From contig WMKJ01000009.1 of assembly GCA_009733715.1 (NCBI GenBank), forward strand, positions 62,001 through 126,000: DNA of 64,000 nucleotides, in the 5' to 3' direction. The translations under genes and the position numbers were made by a program. The DNA comes from Herpomyces periplanetae (lineage: Eukaryota; Ascomycota; Laboulbeniomycetes; Herpomycetales; Herpomycetaceae). The notes beneath the pieces are model-generated. The model saw only the letters and a program-made list of their open reading frames with translations. It ran no database searches and was not told where the DNA came from. Positions 1,847 through 45,339 of this stretch are shown here, in pieces (position 1 is the stretch's first letter; the number at the start of each line of letters is the position of its first letter).

Positions 1847-4800
1847 CTACGTAGGATTAGCTCCAGTATCAGACCCAGAATCCACAATTTCTTTGCGTCG
1901 TTTCCGGCTCGATTTATCTGAACTCTTGGACTTTTTTAACCGTTTCTTTCGCCCACCCGTTTCTTCATCCGTCGTCGATTCTCTATCTCCTCCATCTTCA
2001 ACTTCTGCTTCCTTAATTGCCCGCTTATACGCTAATTCTCGATCAATTTCTTGCATTCGTGTACGCTCATCCTCCATGCGTTTACGCTCTTCTTCTGCTA
2101 ATCTTTCCGCCTCCCTACGCTCCTCTTCTTTCCGCTTAATTTCTGCGTCTCGAAGTTCCTTAGCTTTTTGAAACTTTTCACGCTTCATTTCTTCATACTT
2201 TTTCTGATTCTCGTAGGCTCGTTCCAATTGTTTCTTAATTGTATTCTTGCACATATTAGCTCGTTGCTCAATGCTACTTCTCGGAAACGGTGGATTCTTA
2301 TTCTCGCATACTTCCTTGAATATCTCAATGGCTTCGTCAATCCCTTTCATCGCAAACTCCACCTCTTCTAAACTCTTTTCACTTTCTTTTAGTTGATACA
2401 CTAACTGTCCAATTTGCGTTTGAATAAACGCATTATTAAACTTGAGATGAATCAACTTTTCCCGCTTTTCCGCTTGTTTAGAATATTCTAAGGCTAATTG
2501 CATAGACCTAAACTTTTTATCCTGCCGTGACTTGAGTAACCAAGCTCGTCCCAAACACGTTAAAATATTTCCTTCTTCTTTCGCATCTTGTCCATTATCC
2601 TTCTCTCCCTCTTTACCTTCTTCCCCACGACCTTGACTCTTTTTACTCTCTTGACCCTCTCGACGTCGCTTCGCCAATCCATTCTCGTAATTCTCAATCG
2701 CGCGACTGTAGTTCTTCAATTCACAGTATGCATGTCCAACATTAACATATACATTTAAATCCTTTGTGGCCTCTCTCACTTGACTAAATATCTGTATAGC
2801 TAAATTCAAGTCCTTTTTATCTTCAGCAATAGTAATCGCTATGCCTTGAGCTGCATACGCATTCGTTGGATCAATTTGTAAAGCTTTTTCAAAAAATTCC
2901 ATCGCTCGATCGTACATTTTCTGTCGTTTTTCTTGATCGTAATTCACATCCTTTCTCATTTCCCGTGCGACTGTTAGATAAATATTTCCCATGGCTGTTA
3001 ATGAATACAAATCATGCTTATCCAAGTTCTGTAATGTGTACTTATAGTGCTTTTGTTCAAGATCTTCCGCTACATTAAGTGTCTTCTTCTTAACTTTATT
3101 TAAATGCCATCCGTAGAACGCCCGTATCTCAATATTATTCGAATGCTCTTCGAACAATTCCTTAAACTGCTCTCCCGCATTTTCATGCCCTCGTCTCTTA
3201 ACATCAATATAGACTAACCGTGCCCTAGTGTCAACATACCCTTCATGTTTTGCATGAATTTCTTTATACAGCTTTTCGGCTTCTTCTATTCGGTTCTCTG
3301 CCTCATAAACTCTTGCTAAATTGTAACTTATTATAGTGTTCAACGCCTCAATGTTTTCTGCATTTTCTGTTCCACTTTTGGCTTCGCCCTTAGTTTGGTC
3401 AACTCTGTTGCATGCCTTCAATGCGATGCTGAAGTATTCCCTAGCTTCAGCGTAACGTTCAAACTGATAGTGAAAACATCCAATGTTATTCAATAATTGC
3501 GATGGTAAATACTCGCGCAATGATTTTTTCAGAGCATCCTTTTCTTCGTCACTAATGTCTTCACCACTTCCAAATGCGCTTAGCTCAATTTCTTCCACTT
3601 GTTCTAAACATTGTAGACTTTTCTCCGGATAATCTTCGTACAATCGTGCCAAATACAGCAAAATACTTGAATCTGGTCCCGTTTTGCGCTTCCTATCATT
3701 CCAACTCGCGCGGACCCCTTCTAATAATGATACTGCCTTATTCCGTACACTGATCTTCGTTTTACCTCCACCCCGCCACTCAGTATTAAATACCATATCG
3801 GCTAACAATGCCCCCAATAAAATTACACATTCCTGTGTTTTGCTTTCCTGTACCATTTTTTCCAATAAAAATTTGGCATTTTCGACGTCCCCCATCCATG
3901 CTTTCATTTGTGCAATTCCAAATTTAGCTGCCCCTCCCCCACCAGTTCCCACTCCACTTTTATCATCACCCCTTGCTGCATCTGCCTTAATGTAGCACTC
4001 CATTGCCTTCTCTGCATTCCCTTCGTAATGTTCCTTACGAGCCAGTAGGTACCACCCATCACTAGCAATAGCATTAACATCTGTCCATTCAACGGCTCGT
4101 TTTCCTAAATGTTCTACTTGAGTCATAGCTTTTCTCATTAAAAAGTAACCTCCGAATGTAGCGCAAATTAGAGGAAAGTTTTCACCCCCAGGTAGCTTAA
4201 AAGCCTTCTGCGTGTATTCTGTCATTGCTTTCTTATAAGACTCGGCGAATTCAGGCTCATTAGTCGAGTATTGAGAGCTATACTGTAAATAATATATTCC
4301 CAGTAAGATATTAGCAATTTTGGAATCCGGATTTAAAGAAACAGCTCTGTCCCATGCGACTTTTGCTCCATCCTTGTAGCCGAGTTTCCAGAGACAACAG
4401 CCAATGCCAATCCGAGGATCAGGACTTAATAAATCAGGCGCTTTTTCGAGTACATTCTGATAGCCCTTCAAAGCTTCACCGTATCTAGCCATAGAGTATA
4501 AAACTCTAGCTCTTCCTAACATAGCCATTAAATTCATTCCATTACTATAACGCAAAGAGTCTTCAAATGATTTTAACGCTTGGTGCAAAGTATTCATTCG
4601 TTCAGAATCGTTAACACTAGTACTCAAACCACGGGTCGGTCCAAATAACGAAGCTTTTAGCAAGCTAAGTACACCCCATGAGAGAGACAATGGGGGATAG
4701 TTGGGCTTAAGTTGACTTGCTTCGTTAAGCGTTGCCATGGCCAGCCCAATATAATCCTCTTTAGTTTTCACATTGGCTCCTTCAATGTGGACACGAGGGG

Positions 4801-5221
4801 ACTCTCGACACTTTCCCAAATATGTCCAGCAAAGAGCGTTTAAAAGGTTAACCCTATCATCGAGTTTTGCACTTGATATAGACTTCAACGATTGTGTAAG
4901 CACACTGATTGATAGATCCAACTTTCCCTGTTTAGCATAAGCCAAGGCTATCCACATCCAAGTGTCTTTAGATATTTTTTCGTTCTCTAGGAGCATGCAT
5001 AGTTCCGATGGATCATCATCTAGCGTAGTAAGATCCACCTCTACGGCTTCTTCTGTATCACCACCCTCACTGATCGCGATATCAATAGTGGTTGGAACGT
5101 CTGAGAAACGCTGAAATCTTGATTTAATGGAAATATTATCCTCACAATTGTATCTGTCCTCCATATCAACTCTATTACCTCCACCGGCCATGCCGTTCGA
5201 GCGACAAGGAAGCGAACTCAT
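1847..5221 (-). CDS. CTR9: PAF1 complex subunit CTR9 (TPR protein)
   Basis: CTR9 is the TPR scaffold of the PAF1 complex, which travels with RNA polymerase II and promotes histone modification and elongation. The reading frame is uninterrupted, 1124 residues, close to the family length. TPR units run from about residue 90 to 900, for example the stretches DPTNAYAAQGIAI and DLNVYVNVGHAYCELKNYSR that are typical of CTR9. A long charged helix (EERREAERLAEEERKRMEDE) follows near residues 1000-1060, and the protein ends in a Lys/Arg/Ser-rich tail, also usual for the family. It is divergent from MED18 across a 529-base shared promoter and convergent with GUK1, with 213 bases between the stop codons. 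No introns are needed despite the length. Confidence 0.95.
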   Translation of the reverse strand: MSSLPCRSNGMAGGGNRVDMEDRYNCEDNISIKSRFQRFSDVPTTIDIAISEGGDTEEAVEVDLTTLDDDPSELCMLLENEKISKDTWMWIALAYAKQGKLDLSISVLTQSLKSISSAKLDDRVNLLNALCWTYLGKCRESPRVHIEGANVKTKEDYIGLAMATLNEASQLKPNYPPLSLSWGVLSLLKASLFGPTRGLSTSVNDSERMNTLHQALKSFEDSLRYSNGMNLMAMLGRARVLYSMARYGEALKGYQNVLEKAPDLLSPDPRIGIGCCLWKLGYKDGAKVAWDRAVSLNPDSKIANILLGIYYLQYSSQYSTNEPEFAESYKKAMTEYTQKAFKLPGGENFPLICATFGGYFLMRKAMTQVEHLGKRAVEWTDVNAIASDGWYLLARKEHYEGNAEKAMECYIKADAARGDDKSGVGTGGGGAAKFGIAQMKAWMGDVENAKFLLEKMVQESKTQECVILLGALLADMVFNTEWRGGGKTKISVRNKAVSLLEGVRASWNDRKRKTGPDSSILLYLARLYEDYPEKSLQCLEQVEEIELSAFGSGEDISDEEKDALKKSLREYLPSQLLNNIGCFHYQFERYAEAREYFSIALKACNRVDQTKGEAKSGTENAENIEALNTIISYNLARVYEAENRIEEAEKLYKEIHAKHEGYVDTRARLVYIDVKRRGHENAGEQFKELFEEHSNNIEIRAFYGWHLNKVKKKTLNVAEDLEQKHYKYTLQNLDKHDLYSLTAMGNIYLTVAREMRKDVNYDQEKRQKMYDRAMEFFEKALQIDPTNAYAAQGIAITIAEDKKDLNLAIQIFSQVREATKDLNVYVNVGHAYCELKNYSRAIENYENGLAKRRREGQESKKSQGRGEEGKEGEKDNGQDAKEEGNILTCLGRAWLLKSRQDKKFRSMQLALEYSKQAEKREKLIHLKFNNAFIQTQIGQLVYQLKESEKSLEEVEFAMKGIDEAIEIFKEVCENKNPPFPRSSIEQRANMCKNTIKKQLERAYENQKKYEEMKREKFQKAKELRDAEIKRKEEERREAERLAEEERKRMEDERTRMQEIDRELAYKRAIKEAEVEDGGDRESTTDEETGGRKKRLKKSKSSDKSSRKRRKEIVDSGSDTGANPT

Positions 5222-15692: not shown

Positions 15693-17486
15693 ATGCCTCC
15701 ATCTACTCCGCGGTGCTCTAATTCACCGGCAAGAATTCACACCCCGCCAGCTCCCTTATACGGGTCAAAATTTGATACAAATTGGAGTCCTTATTCTACG
15801 CCACGTCGATCTAGTCGAATTATCGCTAAAAATGCTAAGCTGGCATCCGAGCAGGCCGAAGCTAATTTGGCTAAATCCCCCCAACTAACTGACAAAATTT
15901 CAATAGTAGTCAAATCCCCTACTTGTTCCATACCTGTCGCATGTTCCACGCCAAAAACTCCCCGAATTCCTCGAACTCCTTCGACTCCCAAACAACCCGT
16001 TACAACCCCGCGCAAAAATGTGCCTAAAAATGCTCGAATAACGCGATCAGCCAAGACCTCTACCGATAGAGTAGTTAGACTCTCCCCTCGAAAGCAAGCC
16101 ATCGATAAAAGTGTCAAAAATATTAAATGTACAGGTTTAAGTGATGATTTCTTTGAGGATATTGCCCCAGCTCGAAAACGAGCTGCCACAACAGCTAATA
16201 CTACTAAGCATAACGTTAAACCTTTACATTCTCGGAGGCGTCATTCAGCCCTTGATAACCATTTAAATACGGACATAGAGTCGACATCAAACGGTCTTAA
16301 TATTAACCCTCTTGCTTTAGCAAGTTCTATCCACCAGGGAGCATCGCCCCCTATATCCCCAATCTCCGATAAGATTGACGATTACCTTTTAACAACACCC
16401 AAGAAATATTCTAAACTCGATAATTTTGACTCAAGGCTTTCTCAGTCAGTGGGGTGTCGCGGCCATGTGGAAATAAATCGAGAGAGTACCGAAACTAAAT
16501 TATCATCAAGTGTAACCTGCCGATCACCCATTCGTAACAGCAGATCCAAGAAAAAGGATGCCGTTGCAGATGAGTTATGTACATCCCCAGCAAGTATGCT
16601 ATTGACACCTGCTAAAACTCCACGGAAAAAACATATAAAATCTGAAGATTTGGCGGTGTTCACAGGGAGGCAATACCGTTTGGCCCAGATAGACCATGCT
16701 ATGCCAACGCCGAGACGACGGTTACGAAATTTACCATCTGTATTACTCGATGATGATAATGATGATTTACGCGAGCTAATGAACGATAGTGCCCAAAAAA
16801 TAGAAATATACACGGACTTCCGCGAGAAGATTCCATGTTTGGATCTGAACGATGATAACCCATTTGTCACTAGGCATGATAAGCCGAAATCATGCGATGA
16901 TGATAGAGTGAGATTAAGGCCTCGTACTAAAAAGGTTAAAACAGTGGAAGAAGATGAAGAAATCAGAGCTATGGAGGAAGCAGCCCGACGTGGGGAAGGG
17001 CTAATATACGTATTGTAAGTCGGTGTAAGAGTTTATTTTGCGTAAGGTTAAGCTAATTGGAACTTTTAACATTGATTGAACAGTCGGGGTAAAAAGGTAT
17101 TTCGGCCTTTTCTAGACTCAGTGAAATCGGGTGGGCAAAAGTGTGGTGGTAGAACGGGTGAAGATCCAATGTCCGGGAGTTCAGCAATCATAAACAGCAG
17201 TTTAGCCGGTCCATTTTCAAGTCAGGCTCAAATATTGCGTCAGGCAGGGAGCTTGGCGCAAAAGCCTATACGAAGGTCTAAACTAGGAAAAAACGCGTGT
17301 AGGCGGCTTTGGCCAAGTCAGGAAAGTTTAACAGTTAGCAAGAATGATGATTTTGAAACTGGTAGAGGATGCGTCAAATTAAGCAGAGATGGCAAAACTG
17401 AAAGACGGGCGGACTTTGAAGATGAGGAGGCAACAACGGAAGTTGATATCGACTTGAAAAAGATTGCACGTGTAAAGAAGCGATAA
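15693..17486 (+). CDS. Uncharacterised fungal protein rich in CDK-type S/T-P sites
   Basis: Exons 15693-17014 and 17084-17486 give about 574 residues. The N-terminal 330 residues are disordered and basic, with many S/T-P-x-K/R sites (TPRRS, TPKTPR, SPRKQ, TPRKK), as in cyclin-dependent kinase substrates. A conserved-looking block follows: TPRRRLRNLPSVL, IEIYTDFREKIPCLD, DDNPFVTRH, then RRGEGLIYV joined by splicing to FRGKKVFRPF. I recall this ENPF...GxxYVFRGKKxFR pattern from uncharacterised proteins of many fungi; I know no function for it. The splice is well supported because it restores YVFRGKKVFR. The tail is acidic then basic. It is convergent with POP5. A nuclear cell-cycle role is an inference from composition only. 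Confidence 0.75.
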
Positions 17487-19765: not shown

Positions 19766-20253
19766 ATCTCTACTATCGTATAAGACAATCGGTTACCTTT
19801 ATTCGATTCACACGCATTACTACAAAATATTATGGTACAACGTGGCCGTAATCAATCCCGAAATTGTATTCAAGATATACAACCCTTCTAACATTCATTT
19901 CTTTACTTATAAACCTTTTTTTACTAAATTATTCCTTATCCTTGTACATACTCATCCGCTTATACAATTCCTAAACATGTACGTATATCTGTAAACTAAT
20001 TTTCACCCCACTACTTGATTTAATTGTTCATCTTATTCAACATCTACACTATAATCCAACCTTTCGAAATCTTTCCCTTGTCTACATTTCCTCATTCGGT
20101 TGCTTTCTCACGGTCATCCCTTACATAATTTGTGCACGTGATCATCGCTAATTTTTATGTGGAAGAAGACGATAATCGTTTTTGGGAAAATAAAGTTCCA
20201 AATTGAGTTAATCAGATTGTTGCGTGCATGATATTGTTTAAAAGGTTTTAATC
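19766..20253. other. Spacer with ALG6 promoter
   Basis: These 488 AT-rich bases hold the 3' end of the aldolase transcript and the ALG6 promoter. CACGTGAT lies at 20135-20142, 112 bases before the ALG6 start. Nothing else is recognised. Confidence 0.5.
20135..20142. promoter_or_regulatory. CACGTGAT element
   Basis: E-box of the recurrent class in reverse orientation, 112 bases before ALG6. It is the only one found upstream of the ALG6/NDUFAF8-like/desaturase trio. Confidence 0.6.
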
Positions 20254-21876
20254 ATGAAGAAGTTAAAATGCATACAAATATTCTTGATGCTACTTACTAT
20301 AAGAATATTAATTGCCTGCTGGCCGTATTCAGGATACAATTCACCACCAATGTATGGAGATTTTGAAGCACAGCGGCATTGGATTGAAATCACCAGTAAC
20401 TTACCCGTATCACATTGGTACTTTTATGATCTTCCTTACTGGGGACTTGATTATCCTCCACTTACGGCTTATCATAGCTTACTACTTTCAAAACTGATTC
20501 CTCCAACGTTAAAATCATCTTTCAGTCTATACACTTCACGTGGTACCGAAACGGGATTTCTAAAGATTTTTATGCGATCTACAGTTATTCTTAGCGATTT
20601 TTTCACATATTTACCTGCCGTTTATCTGTGTACTAAATGGAAAGATCGCAACATATACTATTTTACTCTTTTAGCAACAATTCCTGCCCTTCTTCTCATA
20701 GATCACGGTCACTTTCAATATAATAATGTCATGCTAGGCTTGTTTGTATACAGTGTATACTTTTCCAGATACAAAAATTTTTATGCCATATCAAATATAC
20801 TTGCAATTCTTTCAGTTGCATTTAAACAAATGGCTCTATTTTACATTCCCGTACAGGCAACTTTTCTCTTAGCCATGGCGTTTAAAACTCACCTTACCAA
20901 TGAATCATCAATTAACTTCTTAACCAAAATTCTCATCTTCAGCTTTGCTACTTGCTTCATACTTCTCTATCCATTTATTAATGCGTCCCGCACAATTCAA
21001 TTCACTGAAATCCTGTCTGAATCTGTCCTATTCTCTCCCCTTCCTCCACTCTATCCTTACCCAAAGGCACCCACCAAATTTATCCAAATATTGACCCTCC
21101 AAATCACCCAATTAATTCATCGTATATTTCCCTTTCAGCGAGGTATTTTTGAGGATAAAGTGGCCAACTTTTGGTGTACTTTTCATAATTTAGTCTATAA
21201 AATTAACCGAATTCCCTTAAATTGGCTTAAACTATCCTCTCTCATATTAACTATAACCTTTAGTGCACCAACTCTCTACTCTGTTTATCGCAACCCTTCA
21301 AAAGATCGTCTTTTCGCTTCCTTTGCAGCTGTAGCTTGGGCTTTTTTTCTCTTTGGATTCCAAGTTCATGAAAAATCAGTTCTGCTTCCACTCATCCCAA
21401 CATTTCTTCTCATTCTTGAATCCGATTATTCCTCCGCTCCCGTTTGGGTTTCTCTTGCAAACTTCCTGGCAACTTTTTCCCTCTTTCCCCTTCTAGCACG
21501 TGATGGCCAGGCTATTCCATATTTTACTCTTCAGTTACTCTGGTCGAGAGTATTTAATCTTCCACCATTTAACTGGCGATTGTTATCGGAGTCTGGAAGA
21601 TTTGTCTTGCTATCGCATGGTCTTTTATACTTATCCATAATAATTTGGCATACATTAGAATTTTTTGTTCAACCTCCGTCGAGTTTACCTGATCTTTTTG
21701 TCGTAACCAACGCGATCATATCTTTTGGGGGTTTTTTTATTGTGTATTGCTGGTGTATGCTTGCATCAGTTTCGGAGAAATCATTAAAAGACCAACTAGA
21801 CTCTTTGTTCCCACGTTTAGCAAAACTAATATTTCCGGACCCCTTGGACAAACATAAGAATACCAAAATTTCATGA
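20254..21876 (+). CDS. ALG6: Dolichyl-P-Glc:Man9GlcNAc2-PP-dolichol glucosyltransferase ALG6
   Basis: ALG6 adds the first glucose to the lipid-linked oligosaccharide in the ER lumen during N-glycan assembly. It is a single exon of 540 residues with many hydrophobic membrane segments. The luminal loop signature is clear: MYGDFEAQRHWIEIT, WYFYDLPYWGLDYPPLTAYH, and later LLIDHGHFQYNNVMLG and FLFGFQVHEKSVLLPL. The DYPPLTAYHS form and MYGDFEAQRHW favour ALG6 over ALG8. The stop codon at 21874-21876 overlaps the next gene's ATG (21873-21875) as ATGA. It is the first of three same-strand genes with almost no spacing. Confidence 0.93.
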   Translation: MKKLKCIQIFLMLLTIRILIACWPYSGYNSPPMYGDFEAQRHWIEITSNLPVSHWYFYDLPYWGLDYPPLTAYHSLLLSKLIPPTLKSSFSLYTSRGTETGFLKIFMRSTVILSDFFTYLPAVYLCTKWKDRNIYYFTLLATIPALLLIDHGHFQYNNVMLGLFVYSVYFSRYKNFYAISNILAILSVAFKQMALFYIPVQATFLLAMAFKTHLTNESSINFLTKILIFSFATCFILLYPFINASRTIQFTEILSESVLFSPLPPLYPYPKAPTKFIQILTLQITQLIHRIFPFQRGIFEDKVANFWCTFHNLVYKINRIPLNWLKLSSLILTITFSAPTLYSVYRNPSKDRLFASFAAVAWAFFLFGFQVHEKSVLLPLIPTFLLILESDYSSAPVWVSLANFLATFSLFPLLARDGQAIPYFTLQLLWSRVFNLPPFNWRLLSESGRFVLLSHGLLYLSIIIWHTLEFFVQPPSSLPDLFVVTNAIISFGGFFIVYCWCMLASVSEKSLKDQLDSLFPRLAKLIFPDPLDKHKNTKIS

Positions 21877-22129
21877 CGCCTTCTCCTAAACCCCGCGTTA
21901 AACCTATTCAACGCATGTCAAAAGCTCTACAGCAATGTTCTGAGCAGGTTTGTCTAAATTTTTATCTCTATTCTTCACTATTTATTAAAAAATGGCTTTA
22001 TCCCAGTCTGTCAATTACGCCAAGTGTATAGCTCGCGATTATCAAAATATTGGTTTAAATTCGTGTCAAGAAGCGTTTCAACACCTTAAAGCTTGTTATT
22101 CTAAAGCATTTGCCTTCTCTCGCAAGTAA
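21873..22129 (+). CDS. NDUFAF8: Small twin CX9C protein, NDUFAF8-like
   Basis: Exons 21873-21947 and 22007-22129 encode 65 residues, too short to notice without joining the exons. The product has exactly two CX9C motifs, C-SEQSVNYAK-C and C-QEAFQHLKA-C, the coiled-coil-helix layout of small intermembrane-space proteins. The spacing and the YAKC motif resemble NDUFAF8, an assembly factor of complex I; other twin-CX9C proteins remain possible. The first ATG overlaps the ALG6 stop codon; a second in-frame ATG at 21914 would give 51 residues and still include all cysteines. The next gene's ATG is 28 bases past its stop. The intron is 59 bases with a GTTTGT donor. Confidence 0.75.
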
Positions 22130-22156
22130 AGACGTTTGCTCTACAAGTTTCAAACA

Positions 22157-23683
22157 ATGACTGTTAAAAAATGTGGGCGAACTCTTCGTATGTTTTCGGC
22201 ACTTGAAGTTCAAGAGCTTATTGAACGTGGAAGAACCATAATTATCTATAAAGATCGGATTCTCTTGTGTGATGCATGGCTTCCTTATCATCCAGGAGGT
22301 TCTTTAGCAATACAACATCTAGTCGGTAGGGACGCCTCGGACGAAATTGATGCTCTACACTCAATTGAAGCCATTAAACTCATGGAAAAATATCAAGTCG
22401 GCCGTGTTCAACTTCCGTGGGTTAGTTTGGTGCCCCCCCTTCATTCTACTTCACGAAATATTCACAATACCCCCAATCTTTCTAAAACTTTTGACAAGAC
22501 GCTTGATAAAAATAGGAAAAAGCAAAATCACCCAGTCCACATCGATCTTATCTCTGGGAAGCAATTGCATATTGATTGCTTGGAGTATCCTCCACTAGAT
22601 TCCAACGTTCAAGTTAACATAAAAGAGAAGTATAGGATGTTACGCAATAAGCTCGAAAGTGAGGGACTGTTCGAATGTAACTATTGGGCATATGGCCGAG
22701 AATTTGCTAGATACCTAGCACTCTTAGGTCTTAGTTTGGGATTTTTGCATGTTAAATGGTACGTGACAAGTGCTGTATTCATGGGGTGTTTTTGGCATCA
22801 GTTAGCCTTTACTGCTCATGATGCAGGACATATGGGAATAACGCACAATTTTTACATGGATACATTAATTGGAATATTCGTGGCAGATTTATGCGGAGGA
22901 TTATCATTAGGATGGTGGAAGCATAATCATAATGTTCATCACATTGTCACTAATTCCCCAGAACATGATCCCGATATACAACATTTACCATTTTTTGCCG
23001 TTTCGTCCAAGTTTCTCGAGTCAATTTACTCAAGCTTTTACGGCTGTAAATTGCCGTATGATGCAGCGAGTAAATTTTTCGTTCGATACCAAAATTATCT
23101 ATATTATATTGTACTTTTATTTGGAAGGTTCAACTTGTATCGTTTGAGTTTAATTTACCTTATCAAAGGACAAGGGCCACGAAGAGGAAAGGCTCGATAT
23201 TTTCGACATACGGAAATAATGTGTCAAATTATCTTTTACTTTTGGTTTGGGTACCTTCTGTGTTATCGTTCAATACTGAACATGCGGTCAAGAGTGATTT
23301 ACATACTAGTTAGCCATATGATCACCATGCCGTTACATCTTCAGATTACCCTGAGTCATTTCGCTATGGGAACAGGACATATAACAAATGGACAAGAGTC
23401 ATTTCCACAGCGTATGCTTCGTACCACTATGGATGTAGATTGCCCGGAATGGTTGGACTTCTTTCATGGGGGATTACAATTTCAGGCTATACACCATTTG
23501 TACCCTAGAATGCCACGACACAATTTAAGAAGAGCGCAAAGTCTAGTTAAAGAGTTTTGCACTGACGTAAAAATTCCCTATGCATATTATGGGTTTGTCG
23601 AAGGAAATAGAGCTGTGCTAAGTCGATTGGAACAGGTCGCGAGACAAGCTTCTATATTGTCAACCTACAATAAATCTACTTAA
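22157..23683 (+). CDS. Delta-8 sphingolipid desaturase with cytochrome b5 domain
   Basis: This ER membrane enzyme puts a double bond at C8 of the ceramide long-chain base, a step in fungal glucosylceramide synthesis. It is a single exon of about 508 residues. An N-terminal cytochrome b5 domain shows the haem motif HPGG (in LPYHPGGSLAIQ) and a second His in IDALHS. The desaturase part has three histidine boxes, HDAGHMG, HNHNVHH and QAIHHLYP; the Gln in the third box marks front-end desaturases. Membrane helices flank the boxes. The delta-8 assignment over a front-end acyl-lipid desaturase rests on general resemblance. The ATG at 22157 lies 28 bases after the upstream stop, leaving no room for a normal promoter between genes. 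Confidence 0.87.
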   Translation: MTVKKCGRTLRMFSALEVQELIERGRTIIIYKDRILLCDAWLPYHPGGSLAIQHLVGRDASDEIDALHSIEAIKLMEKYQVGRVQLPWVSLVPPLHSTSRNIHNTPNLSKTFDKTLDKNRKKQNHPVHIDLISGKQLHIDCLEYPPLDSNVQVNIKEKYRMLRNKLESEGLFECNYWAYGREFARYLALLGLSLGFLHVKWYVTSAVFMGCFWHQLAFTAHDAGHMGITHNFYMDTLIGIFVADLCGGLSLGWWKHNHNVHHIVTNSPEHDPDIQHLPFFAVSSKFLESIYSSFYGCKLPYDAASKFFVRYQNYLYYIVLLFGRFNLYRLSLIYLIKGQGPRRGKARYFRHTEIMCQIIFYFWFGYLLCYRSILNMRSRVIYILVSHMITMPLHLQITLSHFAMGTGHITNGQESFPQRMLRTTMDVDCPEWLDFFHGGLQFQAIHHLYPRMPRHNLRRAQSLVKEFCTDVKIPYAYYGFVEGNRAVLSRLEQVARQASILSTYNKST

Positions 23684-23963: not shown

Positions 23964-25550
23964 ATGGACAGTCCTTTTTCCGTAACGGAAAAGTTAGCTG
24001 ATGTTGAGTATACTCATAAACTTTTCGGACAGTTAATGTTGAAAGTTTGTTGGAAGAAAGGCTGTATGTGGAGTGGTGAACGAGCTAAATTCTCGATTAC
24101 ACTAATTAATGGAGAGGAATTACGGGAAAATATCGAGGAAGAATACCCCAATGATGATAAAAGGGATGTTTTACACAGTGAACATTTAATGCTGGGCTTT
24201 GTCCAACTTTCAGGCTGGCTATCCCTAAACAAAGTATTAAAGGATGTGGATTTGAGTACTTTAAGAATCATTGGAAATGGGAATCAGGAAGAGTTAACAA
24301 GTGATTTTCATGGAGGCGGAATTATCGGTGTTTCGGCAAAGTTGCCGGAAGAAGTTGATCAAAATGTCAAAGCTGAAGCCAAAAGAGGTTTACTCGATGG
24401 TGTGAGACAATACACCAAATGGGCAGTTACTGGTAAAGCATCAGATGAGATTAAAGACTCAGATAATGCTTCTTCAACAGCTTTAATAATACCTAATTCA
24501 TCAAAAATAAGGATACTTTTTGCCGCACCCAAAATTCTCTTCGTTGATTTACCATTAAAATGTTCAAGTTCAAGGACATTTTCTTACGAAGTAGACCTAC
24601 CTCATGGCCTACCACCATCATATAAAGGTGGTATGCTAAGAATTAACTACTGGATTGAAGTAGGTGTTCAAAGAAAAAAATCAACTCATGTTGATCAAAG
24701 CCAGGAAAATCTGGACGATAATAATCATGAAATGGTGTGTATAAGGATCCCTCTAGGTATTCTGGGCAGTAAAGAGATGGTGGGAAGTAATCAAGCTAAG
24801 GATATATCACCGAAACTTTTATTCGGTGAAGCTGCTAGAGTTAGCGAAGAGAGTAAACCTAAAGTAAGGAATGGTTGCTATGGTACTAAAGTGTTAGGTC
24901 GAACTGGCCTTATGACTGGATCAAGAGAAGGGTTTACGGAATTTTTGCGCAAAAGAATCAAGGAGGATACATACAAAGCGGATGATGATATGCAAAATTG
25001 TAGTACCCATAACCAGATTACTGGGTTAACTAGGAAGCCAAAATGCATTAAAATAACTCGGGAGGGTAAGTTAATGTCGGAAGTTCACGTTAATCGTAAC
25101 GTATTCAAATTGGGGGATATGGTAAGAGTTCGATTGGACACGCGGAAATGTGAAATGAAAATATTACAATTTACAGCGTCACTTGTAACACTAGAAAGTA
25201 TAATTGGATCCATTACTGAAAGAAAAGTGAACTTGAATGATGAGGATTATTATGAAAAAGATTTCAAAGTTTGGACAAGAAGTTTATCATACTCGATGAT
25301 ATTTGCGCAGGCTAAATCGATAGTATTGTGTATTCCTTTATATGCTATTCCCCAATTTATTGCTGGACCTATAGCGGTCAACTGGGCTATCCGGCTCCAC
25401 TTCACAATTTTAAGAGGCAAAAGTTTGACTGTTGATGAGTCTCCTACACAAGTCCACCATGAAAGTGATTCGTTTGACGTGAACATTCCAATACATGTTC
25501 ATAGTGGGGCTATACGAGAGGCGGTTGGAGTTCATGATACAAAAGGGTGA
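23964..25550 (+). CDS. RGP1: RGP1 subunit of the Ric1-Rgp1 exchange factor
   Basis: Rgp1 partners Ric1 as guanine-nucleotide exchange factor for Ypt6/Rab6 at the Golgi. It is a single exon of 528 residues with an arrestin-like fold. Family blocks visible are GFVQLSGWLSLN near the N-terminus, KILFVDLPLKCSSSRTFSYE, LPHGLPPSYKGGMLRINYWI and the C-terminal region HFTILRGKS. An ELREN-to-DDKRD acidic loop and a Lys-rich middle part vary. Its stop lies only 36 bases from that of convergent POT1, so transcript ends must overlap. An E-box pair lies about 100 bases upstream. Confidence 0.83.
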   Translation: MDSPFSVTEKLADVEYTHKLFGQLMLKVCWKKGCMWSGERAKFSITLINGEELRENIEEEYPNDDKRDVLHSEHLMLGFVQLSGWLSLNKVLKDVDLSTLRIIGNGNQEELTSDFHGGGIIGVSAKLPEEVDQNVKAEAKRGLLDGVRQYTKWAVTGKASDEIKDSDNASSTALIIPNSSKIRILFAAPKILFVDLPLKCSSSRTFSYEVDLPHGLPPSYKGGMLRINYWIEVGVQRKKSTHVDQSQENLDDNNHEMVCIRIPLGILGSKEMVGSNQAKDISPKLLFGEAARVSEESKPKVRNGCYGTKVLGRTGLMTGSREGFTEFLRKRIKEDTYKADDDMQNCSTHNQITGLTRKPKCIKITREGKLMSEVHVNRNVFKLGDMVRVRLDTRKCEMKILQFTASLVTLESIIGSITERKVNLNDEDYYEKDFKVWTRSLSYSMIFAQAKSIVLCIPLYAIPQFIAGPIAVNWAIRLHFTILRGKSLTVDESPTQVHHESDSFDVNIPIHVHSGAIREAVGVHDTKG

Positions 25551-25586
25551 CGTTTCTCCGTCTACATTACATATCCATAATTACAA

Positions 25587-27824
25587 TTACACTTCATCCA
25601 ATACTCTTTCTTGTATATCAAAAAATTTGAAACAGCGGATCCACTTACCGTCCAAGCGTATACCATACTCTTGGATACAGCAATGAAATGGCACATTTTG
25701 CAATGCACAGCAACAATAACGTTGTGGAATTATTACATCGCTTGCGGCTGAAGTTGAATGTTCCTTTTCGCGACGATTACCACTCTGACCGGGTGATTCA
25801 TGAAAGATCCCGTGATGCTTGGGCTTGTTATGGGTTAACCAAGTTCCTGATCGTTTGATTTCTTCTAAATTTCCCCAAAGAAGGAATAATCTATTTTTCA
25901 ATCTCTCATAACAACCCGACCCATCTTTTACTTCACACGCTTCAAATCCAATGATCTTTCGACCAGTTTCATCATCTATTATTATTTCACAGCATTCTGA
26001 TAGATTTACGCACGAGCATACTTCTCCACCACATTTCTTCTTGGTCATAGGATCACTCACCAATAGTCTGAAGGCCCATTCCCACTTCCTGTCATTTTTA
26101 CTCAAATCATCATGACGATTCACCGCACCAGCGGGAATATAGCCAGACTTATCATTGATCAAATTGCGTGAGAATTGGCTAATTTTCGGTGGATGAAAAT
26201 CAATAATTTGGATGAAACTTCGGCACTTTAGATTGACAAATGGTGCGTAATGTATACGTTTGTCGGGTGTAACGTACCAGTGAAATTGGTGTTTTACAAG
26301 ATCTCGAATCGTTAAACACTTTCGCTCTTCATGGCTTGCTGTGAAAATTGAATTATCGGAAAGTGGTACTTGTGTGTTTCCTGGTATTCTTTCACCTCTC
26401 TTTGGTCCGGTAATGCATTCGATTTTCTCGCCGTTATCTCTTCGAATATTCTCTGCTAGTAAGCTGTTTTTAAATGAAGTTTCCTTGTAAGCGTGCTCGC
26501 GCTTTGTTAAGTCATCGTAATCTGTAGTGTACAATTTTTCCTCACGGGTAAGCTTCTTGATGAAACTTTTTTTTTCACTTATCACATCATCCGATATATC
26601 TGCTTCAAGTATATCGTGAAACAATTTTGTGTGAATATTACCAAAGATGACTACATTGCCACTTGATATACATTTTTTTGTATAATTGGCTTGTTTACCG
26701 TTAATGTAAACTTGTAAAGTTTTCTTACCAAACGGACCATCCCATTCTCCATGCTTTGCACTATCGTAGTAAATGAATCCACCTTTCTTGACCCGTTGAA
26801 CGCCCGTCCCGGAGCCGTCTAAATAATTAGTATTTCCAGATTGCCCCTTAACAGGTGGTTTAGCGAAATTGTACAGCAATGAGTTAGTCGTGTAATCCGT
26901 TACGAATAGAATTACTCTTGACTCCTGCACTACAATCTTTTTTGTCACAATACACACCAATGAGTATGAATTTTCGGGTTCTAGATCCTTAATTTTTGTT
27001 AAGTCAAGTCGAGTCGGTTCTTTGGGCTCAATAATCGTGTTGAGTGTTTCGTCGGTAAATTGATCGCCAGTTAACCCACAATTTTGAAGCCAATCGTAAA
27101 ATTCACTCATGTAAGTTGCTACTTCCTGTCCCACACTACTTGACATGCCGGCGGGTTGCCATTTACGTAGAAATCGTGTTCTATTCTGCCGAGAAAATTT
27201 ATTCACGCTAACTTGTTCCAATTGTGTAAAACTTTGGCATAACAAGCCACATTTACGCTGTTGCCGGAAAATCTGTAGTGTTGTAAATGTTGTATTAACG
27301 TAGTTAAAACCCAGTATATAAATGTCAGATATGAGCTTACACACAAACATTCATTCACCGTTTGGCGGGAAAAGGATGAGGAATACATTTAATTAAGTAA
27401 AGCAAGACACTTGACATGAAATTTTTACGAGTTAACAAATACAAACCTGTGCGTTGCGTAGAATGATAAATTCGCTTTTTTCTTGAAATTTGGGTAAGTT
27501 ATCTCGTGCACGAAAAAAGCGTAAATCAATAAATCGTGCAGGGCCCAAAGATGGATCCATTAGAGCAATACTTAACATCCAATCTAAAAAAATTAAACGC
27601 AGTTAATCTCACCTCTTAATATATTCCGAATTAGCTTACACTTAACTCCACATCCTCATTAACATACCCGATCCTCTAGTTTTGGTTGGTTCAGGAACTC
27701 GCGCAATAAAAGCAATAATGTCAACTCGATTTTTCAATGGGTAAGCATCAAGAGTTTGAAGTGCGTCAAACCCAGACGGTGGTCTGATATAAGCGCTATA
27801 CATCGAAGATAAACTTTGATTCAT
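25587..27824 (-). CDS. POT1: Telomere single-strand binding protein POT1
   Basis: POT1 binds the G-rich telomeric overhang and protects chromosome ends. Exons on the minus strand are 27824-27668, 27583-27447 and 27272-25587, about 659 residues. The first OB fold is rebuilt by splicing: VDIIAFIARVPEPTKTRGS, then DWMLSIALMDPSL and FIILRNAQ. A second OB fold follows with VTDYTTNSLLYNF, GEWDGPFGKKTLQVYINGK and GNVVIFGNIHTKLFHD. The C-terminal third is Cys-rich (KKKCGGEVCSCVNLSECC) with IDFHPPKISQFSRN before it, like the C-terminal module of POT1/TPP1-binding proteins. The start at 27824 is the best placed ATG; a long upstream frame is probably leader. Divergent from the MSD1-like gene; ATCACATG lies at 28058-28065. 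Confidence 0.87.
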
Positions 27825-37314: not shown

Positions 37315-38379
37315 AACTTGTACGTTTTCCGTATGTACGTGCACGCGCGCTCATCTGCGTCTGGGAATAGCGCAAAGAAGCCTTTTCGCAAACCTTCCCC
37401 TCCCGTTCGTATGCATATACAATATTCTATCCGATTCGTCTATTCGATCTTTTCATTTGCACACACCCACACACTCTGCTTTCTCTATCGCCTGCGCACT
37501 GCCATTCTACTCGTGGAACGGGTGACTTTTACCAGTGTGAATCATAGAGCGGTCTCGACGATCGTGAAGCTCTGTAGAGCGGGATTACCCCGAAACAATT
37601 ACTGCAACGACTCTGCTATTATCAGCACATCATCATCTACGTGGACATGTTTAACTTATACACCTTACGATTTACGAAGATTTACCTTGTATGTTTTCCG
37701 TGTACTTCAGTTAGCCAGCCAGCCTGTGTCTAAGTGCACTTGCATTGTTCTACGTGTCTTCAATATCTATCCATAACTTTTTAGACGTGTGCACACGATA
37801 TCATTGCGTGCTGTGTCCAGCGCTGCTCAACACCGCATTTCCTGCCGACAGCGCTAACCCGTCCGGTGTATCCGCTCCCCACTAGCCTAGTCTCATCACG
37901 GAGTGTTTTTCTCGTTTCAACAGCACACACCACCTGTATGTACGTATTCAAAACAAGTTGAACGTTGCTGTTATCGTCTTAAGTTGCCCGTTCTTCTATT
38001 CCATCCCATCACAGTGCATCGTATCCCGCTGCCCCTTGTCCGTTCTACCAGTCTTTTTGTACATTTTCGCGCACGCGCGCGCTGTGTTCATCACCCTAAT
38101 TGTCTCTTCTCCATCACCCTCGCCCCTCTTACTTCTAATGCATCCGCGCGTGCGCACGCACCCCACGAGTCATACATGTGCTTCAACCTGATCGGTGAAG
38201 CTCTCATCTCCATTTCTGGTTAAGTATGCGCACAATGTAAAAACATGTACACACACACACGCACACACACCTTTATGCGCGTGCGCCGTCATTGTGAAAA
38301 TGTGCCGCTGCCACCCGGCCTGGAAAAATGTTTACTGGCACCACACCGTACATACCAATAACATCATATCACCTACAAA
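37315..38379. other. Convergent 3' region with CA and CG alternating tracts
   Basis: About 1.07 kb separates two convergent stop codons. It is C/T-rich and holds CGCGCACGCGCGCGC at 38068-38082 and an (AC)n tract with one G at 38249-38270. Several open frames are present but none has a domain or motif I recognise. Confidence 0.45.
38249..38270. repeat. (AC)n microsatellite
   Basis: Eleven AC dinucleotides are interrupted once (GC for AC). It lies in the 3' region between two convergent genes. Confidence 0.85.
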
Positions 38380-42700: not shown

Positions 42701-45339
42701 ATGAAATACTTTTACCCCAGTGCAGCTTTTATTCCAATAGTCTCAGCAAATATCATATTCAATTACGTTCAGCCTACATGCGATTTATCTAGCAATTCAA
42801 CCCAATATTCATGTCTCCGCGGTCAGATTTGTCAAGCTAACGGAGTGTAAGTGTACTGTCTCTTCAATTATTTCCAATAACGTTCACATCGATCAGACCT
42901 ACCCCCAAAATCTTTCATACGCTCACTTATATGCGAGTAAATAATTTTCGTTGGCCACCAAATGCTAATTCATTCTATTCTATTCGCATAATCTCGTCCC
43001 AAACAGATGTTTAGCAGTCCGCGATAATATTGAATCGTTGAATAAGGCTAGCGCTTTCAGTTCAACGTTAAACTGCAATCAACTCACCCAAGGTACTCCT
43101 AATCAATGGAATAACAATGAATCAGTAATAGTCTCTTGCCTAACTAAGACCGAGTAAGTTTAAAATGCTCACACTTGCCAGACTATTGGCATGATCTACT
43201 CAAGCTTCTTAACGTAAAGTCCTCTCTGTATTAATTCAATTTGTTACTAACACACAACTCATTAGCGTGAACGAGGGAAATGAAAAAAAATTTACGGATA
43301 GTTGGACACACTTTTTACAGGGCAGTAAAAGTATCCCATCAATTAACACCTTTGCGCAAATTCAAGTTGAAAACGACGCAAGTGATGACAGTGATGAAGC
43401 ATCGAAAGGAGATGCCATCGGTAGCATTGAAAGAGATGCGACTGTTGGCAATGGTAAAGTTAAACCTGGCGAACAAATTACTAAACCTAAAGACCCGATT
43501 GGGAAACCCAATAACCAAAATAATCCTTACAATAATAGCTCTTCGACGTTAACTACAACGGATGGAACATGTGGTGCTAAGTACGGGTACAGATTCTGTG
43601 GTAATTGGGCAGCTGGATCGTGTTGCAGTATGTACGGGTACTGTGGTAAAAGTGAAGCGCATTGTGGACTAGGCTGTCAGTCTGGTCCTTGTTTAGGTGC
43701 TGCTGGTCTAGTACAAAGTCAAGGACCTAAAGCCGCTAAAGTTAATGGATTTCCCGGGAATTTTCGAGTAGTCGGATCGTCCAAAGTCCCCGTCATGCAT
43801 GCCGCTGTTATGCCTAACGGAAGAGTTGCATTTTTGGATAAGGTAGAAAACTATACGGAAATTCGTTTGGCTAATGGTCAATTTGCCTACTCTGTTGAAT
43901 GGGACCCTGTTACTCAAGAAATTGTACCCTTGCCATATAAAACTAATGCATTTTGCTCAGGAGGTGGGTTTCTAGCTGACGGAACTCTCGTATCAGTTGG
44001 GGGGAATGGTCCTTTAATGCACGTTGATACCACGGTTGGAGATGGTTTTAGTGCTATCAGGTACCTTAAGCGAAGCATGAGAAGTGGATTTTCCGATGGA
44101 AGTGGATGGATTGAAGATGATAGAGTCAAATTGACCAGCGCTAGATGGTACCCGAGCTTCCAAATTCTACCGGATAAGCGGTCTTTCGTCGTATCAGGGT
44201 CCAAAAATGGGCTTGATCCGGGAAATCCCGTTAACAATAATCCTACTTATGAGATTTTGAATAAGGATGGCGTTAGCGAAGGAAATACCTATACCATGGA
44301 CATTCTGGTAAGAAATCAGCCATATTATATGTATCCTTTTCTTCACCTGTTGAAAGATGGAAATTTGTTCGTTTTTGTGGCAAAATCTTCCCAATTATTT
44401 GACGTTTCAAGGAATGCCGTAATACGCGATTACGATGAACTCCCGGGCGACTTTCGTACTTATCCAAACACTGGATCATCCGTACTTTTACCCTTAACAT
44501 CCAAAAATGATTGGGAACCTGAAGTTTTAGTTTGTGGTGGTGGTCCGTACCAAAGTCTTGATGCTCCGACCGATTCCACGTGTGGAAGAATAGCTCCTTT
44601 GTCCACCAAACCCGGTGGTGCTAAATGGCAAATTGAGTCTATGCCAGACAGTCGCTGTATGGTAGAGGCAGTATTATTACCAGATGGAACATCTCTATGG
44701 CTTAACGGAGCTCACCGTGGCGCTCAAGGTTTCGAATTAGCTAGTGATCCAGCCTTAACTGCTTTACTATATGACCCCGAAATGCCTGCAGGTGAAAGAT
44801 TTACAATCGATGCATCGACAAGTATTGCAAGATTGTATCATTCTGTTGCACTACTTTTATTAGATGGAACTGTTTTGGTTGGTGGAAGTAATCCAGTTGA
44901 GCAACCTATACTACAGTCAACTAAAGAAAAAGAGTTTGTAACGGAATTTCGACTCGAGATATATACACCTCCATACTTGTCGGGACAAAATGCCAAGTTA
45001 AGACCGACTGATGTTAGCCTTTCCAATACTAACATGTTAACTGTTCAATCCACGAAAGCACAAGCTGCACAAGCTCCATTTTGGGTAAACTTTGCCACCC
45101 ATGAAAATTCCACCGACGTAAAAATTTCCCTGATATACGGAGGATATGTTACGCATAGTTTACACATGGGTCAAAGGTTGGTCTATCTTGATCATACAGG
45201 ATTTAAACCGGGTTATACACGACAACGTTTAATGGTTCAACCTCCTCCCAATTTGAACATAGCTCCTCCCGGTCCATACATGTTGTTTGTAGTGGTGAAC
45301 GGAATTCCGAGTCATGGTCAAATGATTATGGTGGCATAA
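42701..45339 (+). CDS. Glyoxal oxidase (copper radical oxidase) with chitin-binding module
   Basis: This is a secreted copper radical oxidase that oxidises simple aldehydes to acids and makes hydrogen peroxide. Exons 42701-42846, 43007-43153 and 43266-45339 give about 788 residues. A hydrophobic N-terminus (FIPIVSANIIF) suggests a signal peptide. A Cys-rich region (SCLRGQICQANGVC) and a spacer precede a type 1 chitin-binding domain (YRFCGNWAAGSCCSMYGYCG). The catalytic part has the radical Cys in NAFCSGGGFLADG, the cross-linked Tyr in SARWYPSF, copper ligands in ARLYHSVALLL and GGYVTHSLHMGQR, and the C-terminal early-set fold. The chitin module suggests action at fungal or insect chitin. Each junction keeps frame and conserved spacing. 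Confidence 0.92.

Follow-up and report, generated by a model that had tools for sequence, protein, structure and literature searches.

How is each of three genes expressed when the start codon of the second lies on the stop codon of the first and the third begins a few tens of bases farther on? The question is raised by a locus of the ascomycete Herpomyces periplanetae, which lies in a 64,000-nucleotide (nt) stretch of contig WMKJ01000009.1 (positions 62,001 to 126,000; G000:C219:62001-126000; hereafter, the window) and belongs to a 13.8-Mb assembly of 220 contigs. Genes for ALG6, a twin-CX9C protein of the NDUFAF8 family, and a fusion of cytochrome b5 with a desaturase follow one another in this order on the (+) strand, separated by -4 and 27 nt (Table 1). 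A preliminary description of the window had reported three same-strand genes packed end to end, with the ALG6 stop codon and the next start codon sharing ATGA at 21873-21876, and the coordinates confirm both points. The desaturase start codon also closely follows the stop codon of the small gene, but the spacer between the TAA at 22127-22129 and the ATG at 22157 is 27 nt rather than the 28 claimed. The tight three-gene arrangement is real and uncommon for a nuclear genome. We favor, with about even confidence, the explanation that the three real genes are overlapping but separately initiated transcription units.

Table 1. Features of the ALG6–NDUFAF8–desaturase locus (positions within the window)
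Feature	Position	Strand	Remarks
CACGTG 119 nt upstream of the ALG6 ATG	20135..20140	+	candidate ALG6 promoter element
ALG6, dolichyl-P-Glc:Man9GlcNAc2-PP-Dol glucosyltransferase	20254..21876	+	single open frame, 540 amino acids (aa); stop TGA 21874-21876
CACGTG within the ALG6 coding sequence, 376 nt upstream of the NDUFAF8 ATG	21497..21502	+	candidate buried-promoter element, hint only
NDUFAF8-family gene, twin CX9C, 65 aa	21873..22129	+	exon 1 21873-21947, exon 2 22007-22129; spliced translation, profile match, alignment
ATGA shared by NDUFAF8 start and ALG6 stop	21873..21876	+	NDUFAF8 ATG 21873-21875; 4-nt overlap
Intron of the NDUFAF8 gene, 59 nt, GT-AG	21948..22006	+	ungapped family alignment over the junction; unspliced frame stops early
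Spacer from NDUFAF8 stop to desaturase start, 27 nt	22130..22156	+	terminates in TTTCAAACA ahead of the ATG
Cytochrome b5–fatty acid desaturase fusion, Delta-8 sphingolipid desaturase type	22157..23683	+	508 aa, single open frame

The small gene and its start codon

The product of the small gene carries the spacing CX9C-X12-CX9C, which emerges only after removal of an intron that the preliminary description had not mentioned; an unspliced protein was rejected, its frame terminating early. Single-sequence comparisons yielded only sub-threshold CX9C/CHCH matches in Pfam (the best with E = 0.0017 and 18.6 bits, where the cut-off is 26.4), no candidate relative when the 65-aa protein was searched directly against the database, irrelevant sub-cut-off matches in an NCBIfam scan, and no significant relative among solved structures (best E-values, 0.23 and 0.95). 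A family search queried with an alignment of the small protein and three composed probes matched 425 proteins at E ≤ 1, 120 of which were listed. The profile built from these 120 proteins, with the small protein itself excluded, matched the latter with 59.6 bits (E = 1.8e-15, set for 177,635 sequences), whereas the highest score among 4000 shuffles, in half of which the cysteines were kept, was 18.5 bits against the same profile, a difference by which we rejected a chance frame. Among the 120 proteins listed of the 425, P0143 bears the name NADH dehydrogenase 1 alpha subcomplex assembly factor 8 (NDUFAF8) and many others the name “IMS import disulfide relay-system.” The small protein is accordingly assigned, by sequence similarity, to the fungal NDUFAF8 family of complex I assembly factors, with a mitochondrial location and role predicted by homology. 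The small protein matches a single place in the assembly, with no second copy found, so that NDUFAF8, if expressed, is expressed from this locus.

In an alignment of the small protein with 14 relatives picked from the 120 listed (15 rows), P11, C22, Y29 (three residues before the second cysteine), C32, C45, and C55 are invariant, and the alignment crosses the exon junction without a gap. An R-P-I motif, in which R and I are nearly invariant, precedes the first cysteine and corresponds to K10-P11-I12 of the small protein, the first methionine of which (M1) coincides with the start of its relatives. Because this R/K-P-I motif lies upstream of the next methionine (M15) and an in-frame TAA is found at 21855, 18 nt ahead of M1, the start at 21873, overlapping the ALG6 TGA, is very probably the true one. 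A start at M15, which would leave a 38-nt gap, was rejected since the conserved motif would be lost.

Several family matches from filamentous fungi (P0194, P0207, P0218, and P0231) are named “Conidiophore development hymA protein,” and P0170, P0177, and P0188 carry shortened names with the same beginning. HymA is a Mo25-type protein, and the naming may stem from fused or adjacent NDUFAF8/hymA gene models, that is, from tight packing with another partner. A search for Mo25/hymA gave no match but carries no weight, its controls having given none either.

The flanking genes

The ALG6 frame matches the Pfam family Alg6_Alg8 with 357.7 bits and yeast ALG6 (chain 6snh_X) with E = 1.8e-89. The alignment with the yeast enzyme stops at residue 513, which is the chain end, and its final stretch is weak (i-Evalue 0.0031); a tail of 27 residues extends beyond it. 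A second member of the Alg6_Alg8 family is encoded on contig C213.

The desaturase frame matches Pfam Cyt-b5 in its N-terminal part as well as FA_desaturase. The corresponding search matched 4179 proteins; among the 120 listed, many of the best are named Delta 8-(E)-sphingolipid desaturase, the recognized organisms are filamentous ascomycetes, and local identity is 48-64%. Full-length alignment with 12 relatives gave 54-58% identity, with HDxxH, HNVHH, and QA[IV]HH, which we take to be the three His boxes of the desaturase, present in the protein and all 12 relatives. Its first methionine agrees with the N-terminal length of the relatives, only one of which (P0098) starts at desaturase M12. 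The protein thus appears to be of the Delta-8 sphingolipid desaturase type, its regioselectivity, at Delta-8 of the long-chain base, being predicted by homology.

Spacing of genes in the window

The 21 supported genes of the window form 20 neighboring pairs, nine of them on the same strand, and the gaps between the supported coding stretches of these nine measure -4, 27, 280, 474, 488, 732, 1532, 3769, and 9867 nt; exons or genes that were missed may fall within these gaps, and the largest probably hide further genes. Among supported genes, the gaps of -4 and 27 nt are local outliers; the possibility that such short gaps are typical here was rejected, the remaining seven being 280 nt or more. 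The earlier statement that other neighbors lie at least about 200 bases apart fails for convergent pairs, the closest of which, Rgp1/POT1 and Med18/CIA30, are 36 and 153 nt apart. With 36 nt between the stop codons of the converging Rgp1 and POT1-like genes (window 25550-25587), their 3′ ends must either overlap or be very short.

Unsupported same-strand frames of at least 100 aa do lie closer together in the window (gaps of 150, 100, 18, 98, and 33 nt). Of those that could be judged, the frame at 37333-37776 and the one upstream of it have no Pfam match, and the pairs 60144/60701 and 60701/61067 resemble exons; the small frames at 17169 and 30256 are unsupported predictions. Within the 142 kb examined, same-strand frames of at least 100 aa less than 100 nt apart also occur outside the window, on contigs C213 (gap of 83 nt) and C2 (overlap of 20 nt), both as predicted frames. 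In the C2 case (L014:5194-7576), a frame of 698 aa, for which Pfam gave no match, overlaps the following same-strand predicted frame of 101 aa.

As a weak control, we considered seven further genes of the assembly that encode small intermembrane-space proteins, namely, three of the four Tim10/DDP matches together with two CHCH and two Cmc1 matches. Three of these loci (L016, L017, and L018) have no same-strand ATG frame of at least 70 codons within 100 nt, and the other four (L019, L020, L021, and L022) have unsupported same-strand frames of 82-158 aa that overlap the gene or lie within about 100 nt of it; judged from frames alone, with gene ends unmodelled, these neighbors neither show nor exclude other tight pairs. 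At L021:1226-1707, an unsupported and possibly spurious same-strand frame of 86 aa shares 19 nt with the end of the Cmc1-like gene. Gene calling by codon usage lacked power, as ALG6 itself was not in the resulting list. Although an ATGA overlap needs only a TGA after an A, it is not common here: among 29 long open reading frames (ORFs), 12 have TGA as their stop codon, and in ALG6 alone is it part of ATGA.

Proposed separate initiation within overlapping units

In the favored explanation, for which we infer all transcription starts and ends, ALG6 would be transcribed from its own 488-nt upstream region and NDUFAF8 from a promoter buried toward the 3′ end of ALG6, within its coding sequence, which would allow the NDUFAF8 start codon to sit on the ALG6 stop codon. 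The desaturase promoter would lie in the NDUFAF8 gene or at the end of ALG6, and desaturase transcripts would either start in the NDUFAF8 gene or carry NDUFAF8 as their first cistron. The NDUFAF8 gene would thereby occupy what would otherwise be a 280-nt intergenic region between ALG6 and the desaturase.

In favor of separate initiation, NDUFAF8 and the desaturase are both members of conserved families with their frames intact, and no coupling element was detected at the ATGA by a search of ALG6 for UGGGA or by nested folding. Counting all frames and including the ALG6 start, 19 AUGs precede that of NDUFAF8, so that scanning from a capped ALG6 mRNA would hardly deliver the small protein. Reinitiation after long cellular ORFs is described as presumably very rare (PMC5972666). 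These two considerations, together with the missing UGGGA and an ordinary fold, favor a transcription start inside ALG6. Independent transcription is also described for Agaricomycete genes that occur in polycistronic RNAs (PMC4503453).

The preliminary description had placed the recurrent E-box only before ALG6. This does not hold: CACGTG occurs at 19 sites in the window (about 10 expected), including two inside ALG6, at 20537 and 21497, and one 115 nt before Rgp1. Supported coding sequence contains three of the 19, where 7.7 would be expected (P = 0.02). Six of 11 confident starts are preceded by a site at no more than 600 nt, one site being common to two of these starts; NDUFAF8 is among the six by virtue of the site within ALG6. 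In the window, CACGTG thus behaves as a promoter element would, and the site 376 nt before NDUFAF8 offers a hint, but only a hint, of a buried promoter.

Several points weigh against separate initiation. No CACGTG is present within 600 nt upstream of the desaturase. The motif argument is itself weak, concerning a single motif, a candidate element that was picked because the preliminary description had named it, and the ALG6 stretch bearing it aligns with the yeast enzyme and is hence protein-coding anyway. None of the tests applied can recognize a promoter inside coding sequence.

Shared transcripts and chance packing as alternatives

NDUFAF8 and the desaturase might instead share a dicistronic mRNA that starts in ALG6, the desaturase being reached by leaky scanning past weak starts and ALG6 being expressed separately; we regard this as a tentative alternative, less probable than separate initiation of all three genes. 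The first ORF of 195 nt plus stop, the 27-nt spacer, and the second ORF of 1524 nt plus stop compare with medians of 291, 40, and 1185 nt reported for leaky-scanning bicistrons of the green alga Auxenochlorella (PMC11892635), with which the locus shares a short first frame in a weak context, a spacer of tens of bases, a longer second frame in a good context, and unrelated products. Position -3 is occupied by T at NDUFAF8 M1 (weak), C at M15, and A at the desaturase AUG (strong); on a crude context score against the first ATGs of 29 long ORFs, whose predicted start sites give a loose consensus, M1 exceeds 4/29, M15 15/29, and the desaturase start 25/29. The depletion of AUGs expected from the algal cases is not evident, however: two more AUGs follow M1, and a count of two or fewer is found in 18% of comparable coding windows. 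One of the two, M15, is in frame with a middling score, and the other is out of frame, has G at -3, and opens a two-codon frame. The algal mRNAs have, moreover, been demonstrated, whereas the dicistronic mRNA of the fungus is predicted from DNA, and here a third gene abuts upstream. Animal mRNAs offer a further parallel in that, in some cases, a small mitochondrial or twin-CX9C protein precedes a secretory-pathway gene: the human SLC35A4 mRNA pairs a mitochondrial microprotein (STREMI) with a Golgi transporter (PMC13303939), and conserved Drosophila upstream ORFs include twin-CX9C peptides, for example, on the mRNA of CG9865, a putative mannosyltransferase (PMC2276209). Those are described as single transcripts, and the protein families differ from ours.

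Production of NDUFAF8 by termination and reinitiation at the ATGA, on an mRNA shared with ALG6 or with both neighbors, as in viral stop-restart or the operons of Glarea, appears unlikely. The overlap does fall at what is probably the true start, and calicivirus termination upstream ribosome-binding sites (TURBS) likewise act on overlapping stop and start codons (PMC5972666). Here, however, the pair is cellular, ALG6 is long and contains no UGGGA (the TURBS core) anywhere, and the nested fold of 21753-21902 is ordinary (z = +0.78, 154/200 shuffles as good; pseudoknots lie outside the model). Another viral stop-restart with overlapping codons is the AUGA of victoriviruses. The IGG operon of Glarea lozoyensis resembles the locus in being ascomycete, with same-strand genes and a very short spacer; its nine-base spacer yields bicistronic expression in yeast, for which reinitiation has been proposed (PMC10352335). 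TCAAAC, located in the desaturase spacer just before the AUG, corresponds to six bases of this nine-base spacer, IGG6, CAATCAAAC (PMC11677970). By chance, TCAAAC would be found in about 0.7% of cases over 22 start positions, and among the 29 long ORFs the desaturase alone has it there. The match is nonetheless partial, the full nine-base IGG6 being absent, was sought post hoc, and falls in the desaturase spacer rather than at the ATGA; moreover, that spacer measures 27 rather than 9 nt, and a shared transcript is only predicted here.

The tricistronic mRNA is the least likely of the options raised in the preliminary description, given the 19 upstream AUGs, the rarity of reinitiation, the missing TURBS core, and the lack of an unusual nested fold. 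We think it very improbable that the locus is a three-gene nuclear operon of an ascomycete, in which NDUFAF8 would be made by stop-restart at the ATGA and the desaturase from the same mRNA, so that glycosylation in the endoplasmic reticulum, sphingolipid modification, and complex I assembly would be coupled through expression.

The overlap could also have no role in expression, ALG6 having lost an earlier stop codon and run on to the first TGA, inside the NDUFAF8 start. The final 27 ALG6 residues beyond the yeast match and the modest requirement for an ATGA overlap agree with such chance packing, but the tail, for which the comparison covered the yeast enzyme, may be old, and chance would have to be invoked a second time for the short desaturase spacer. 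We consider chance packing improbable; being compatible with both separate initiation and the leaky-scanning dicistron, its estimate overlaps theirs.

Buried promoters and the two-gene NDUFAF8–desaturase mRNA are thus the two options that we rate highest, and most likely the mechanism is not a new one but ordinary or of a known kind, the locus having either concealed promoters or a message for two proteins of a type already described.

Precedents among fungi

Up to 8% of transcribed genes of Agaricomycetes are found in polycistronic transcripts, and the authors reported none in Neurospora crassa (PMC4503453). In Saccharomyces cerevisiae, the spacers of bicistronic transcripts are short by comparison with controls (PMC8573964), and in a selected yeast strain bicistrons are reportedly expressed via 80S reinitiation, with output falling as the spacer lengthens, no functional bicistrons having previously been reported in yeast according to its authors (PMC11952965). 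The locus resembles the Agaricomycete and S. cerevisiae cases in its tandem fungal genes and possible co-transcription, which short spacers accompany in yeast. It differs from them in that the mean inter-ORF distance in P. crispa is 364 nt (PMC4503453), and the cited portions mention no stop–start overlap (PMC4503453, PMC8573964). Scanned against Rfam at gathering scores, the window gave 0 matches; no search was aimed at spliced-leader RNA or trans-splice sites.

Should NDUFAF8 and the desaturase prove to share one mRNA, a fungal case would join the animal and algal examples of a small protein encoded ahead of an unrelated gene. Should promoters be buried, the locus would be a clean example of a housekeeping start codon locked into the stop codon of its neighbor, with neither gene free to change without affecting the other.

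Other features of the window and contig

A single frame at 43213-45339 of the window combines Chitin_bind_1, Glyoxal_oxid_N, and GO-like_E_set, corresponding to a glyoxal oxidase that bears a chitin recognition domain at its N-terminus, and a 1124-aa frame at 1847-5221 contains many TPR repeats. Elsewhere on the contig (L007:1786-3672, that is, C219:53786-55672), a frame with matches to MULE transposase and AFT, as well as sub-cut-off matches to FAR1, lies 45 nt from a convergent Snf7 gene.

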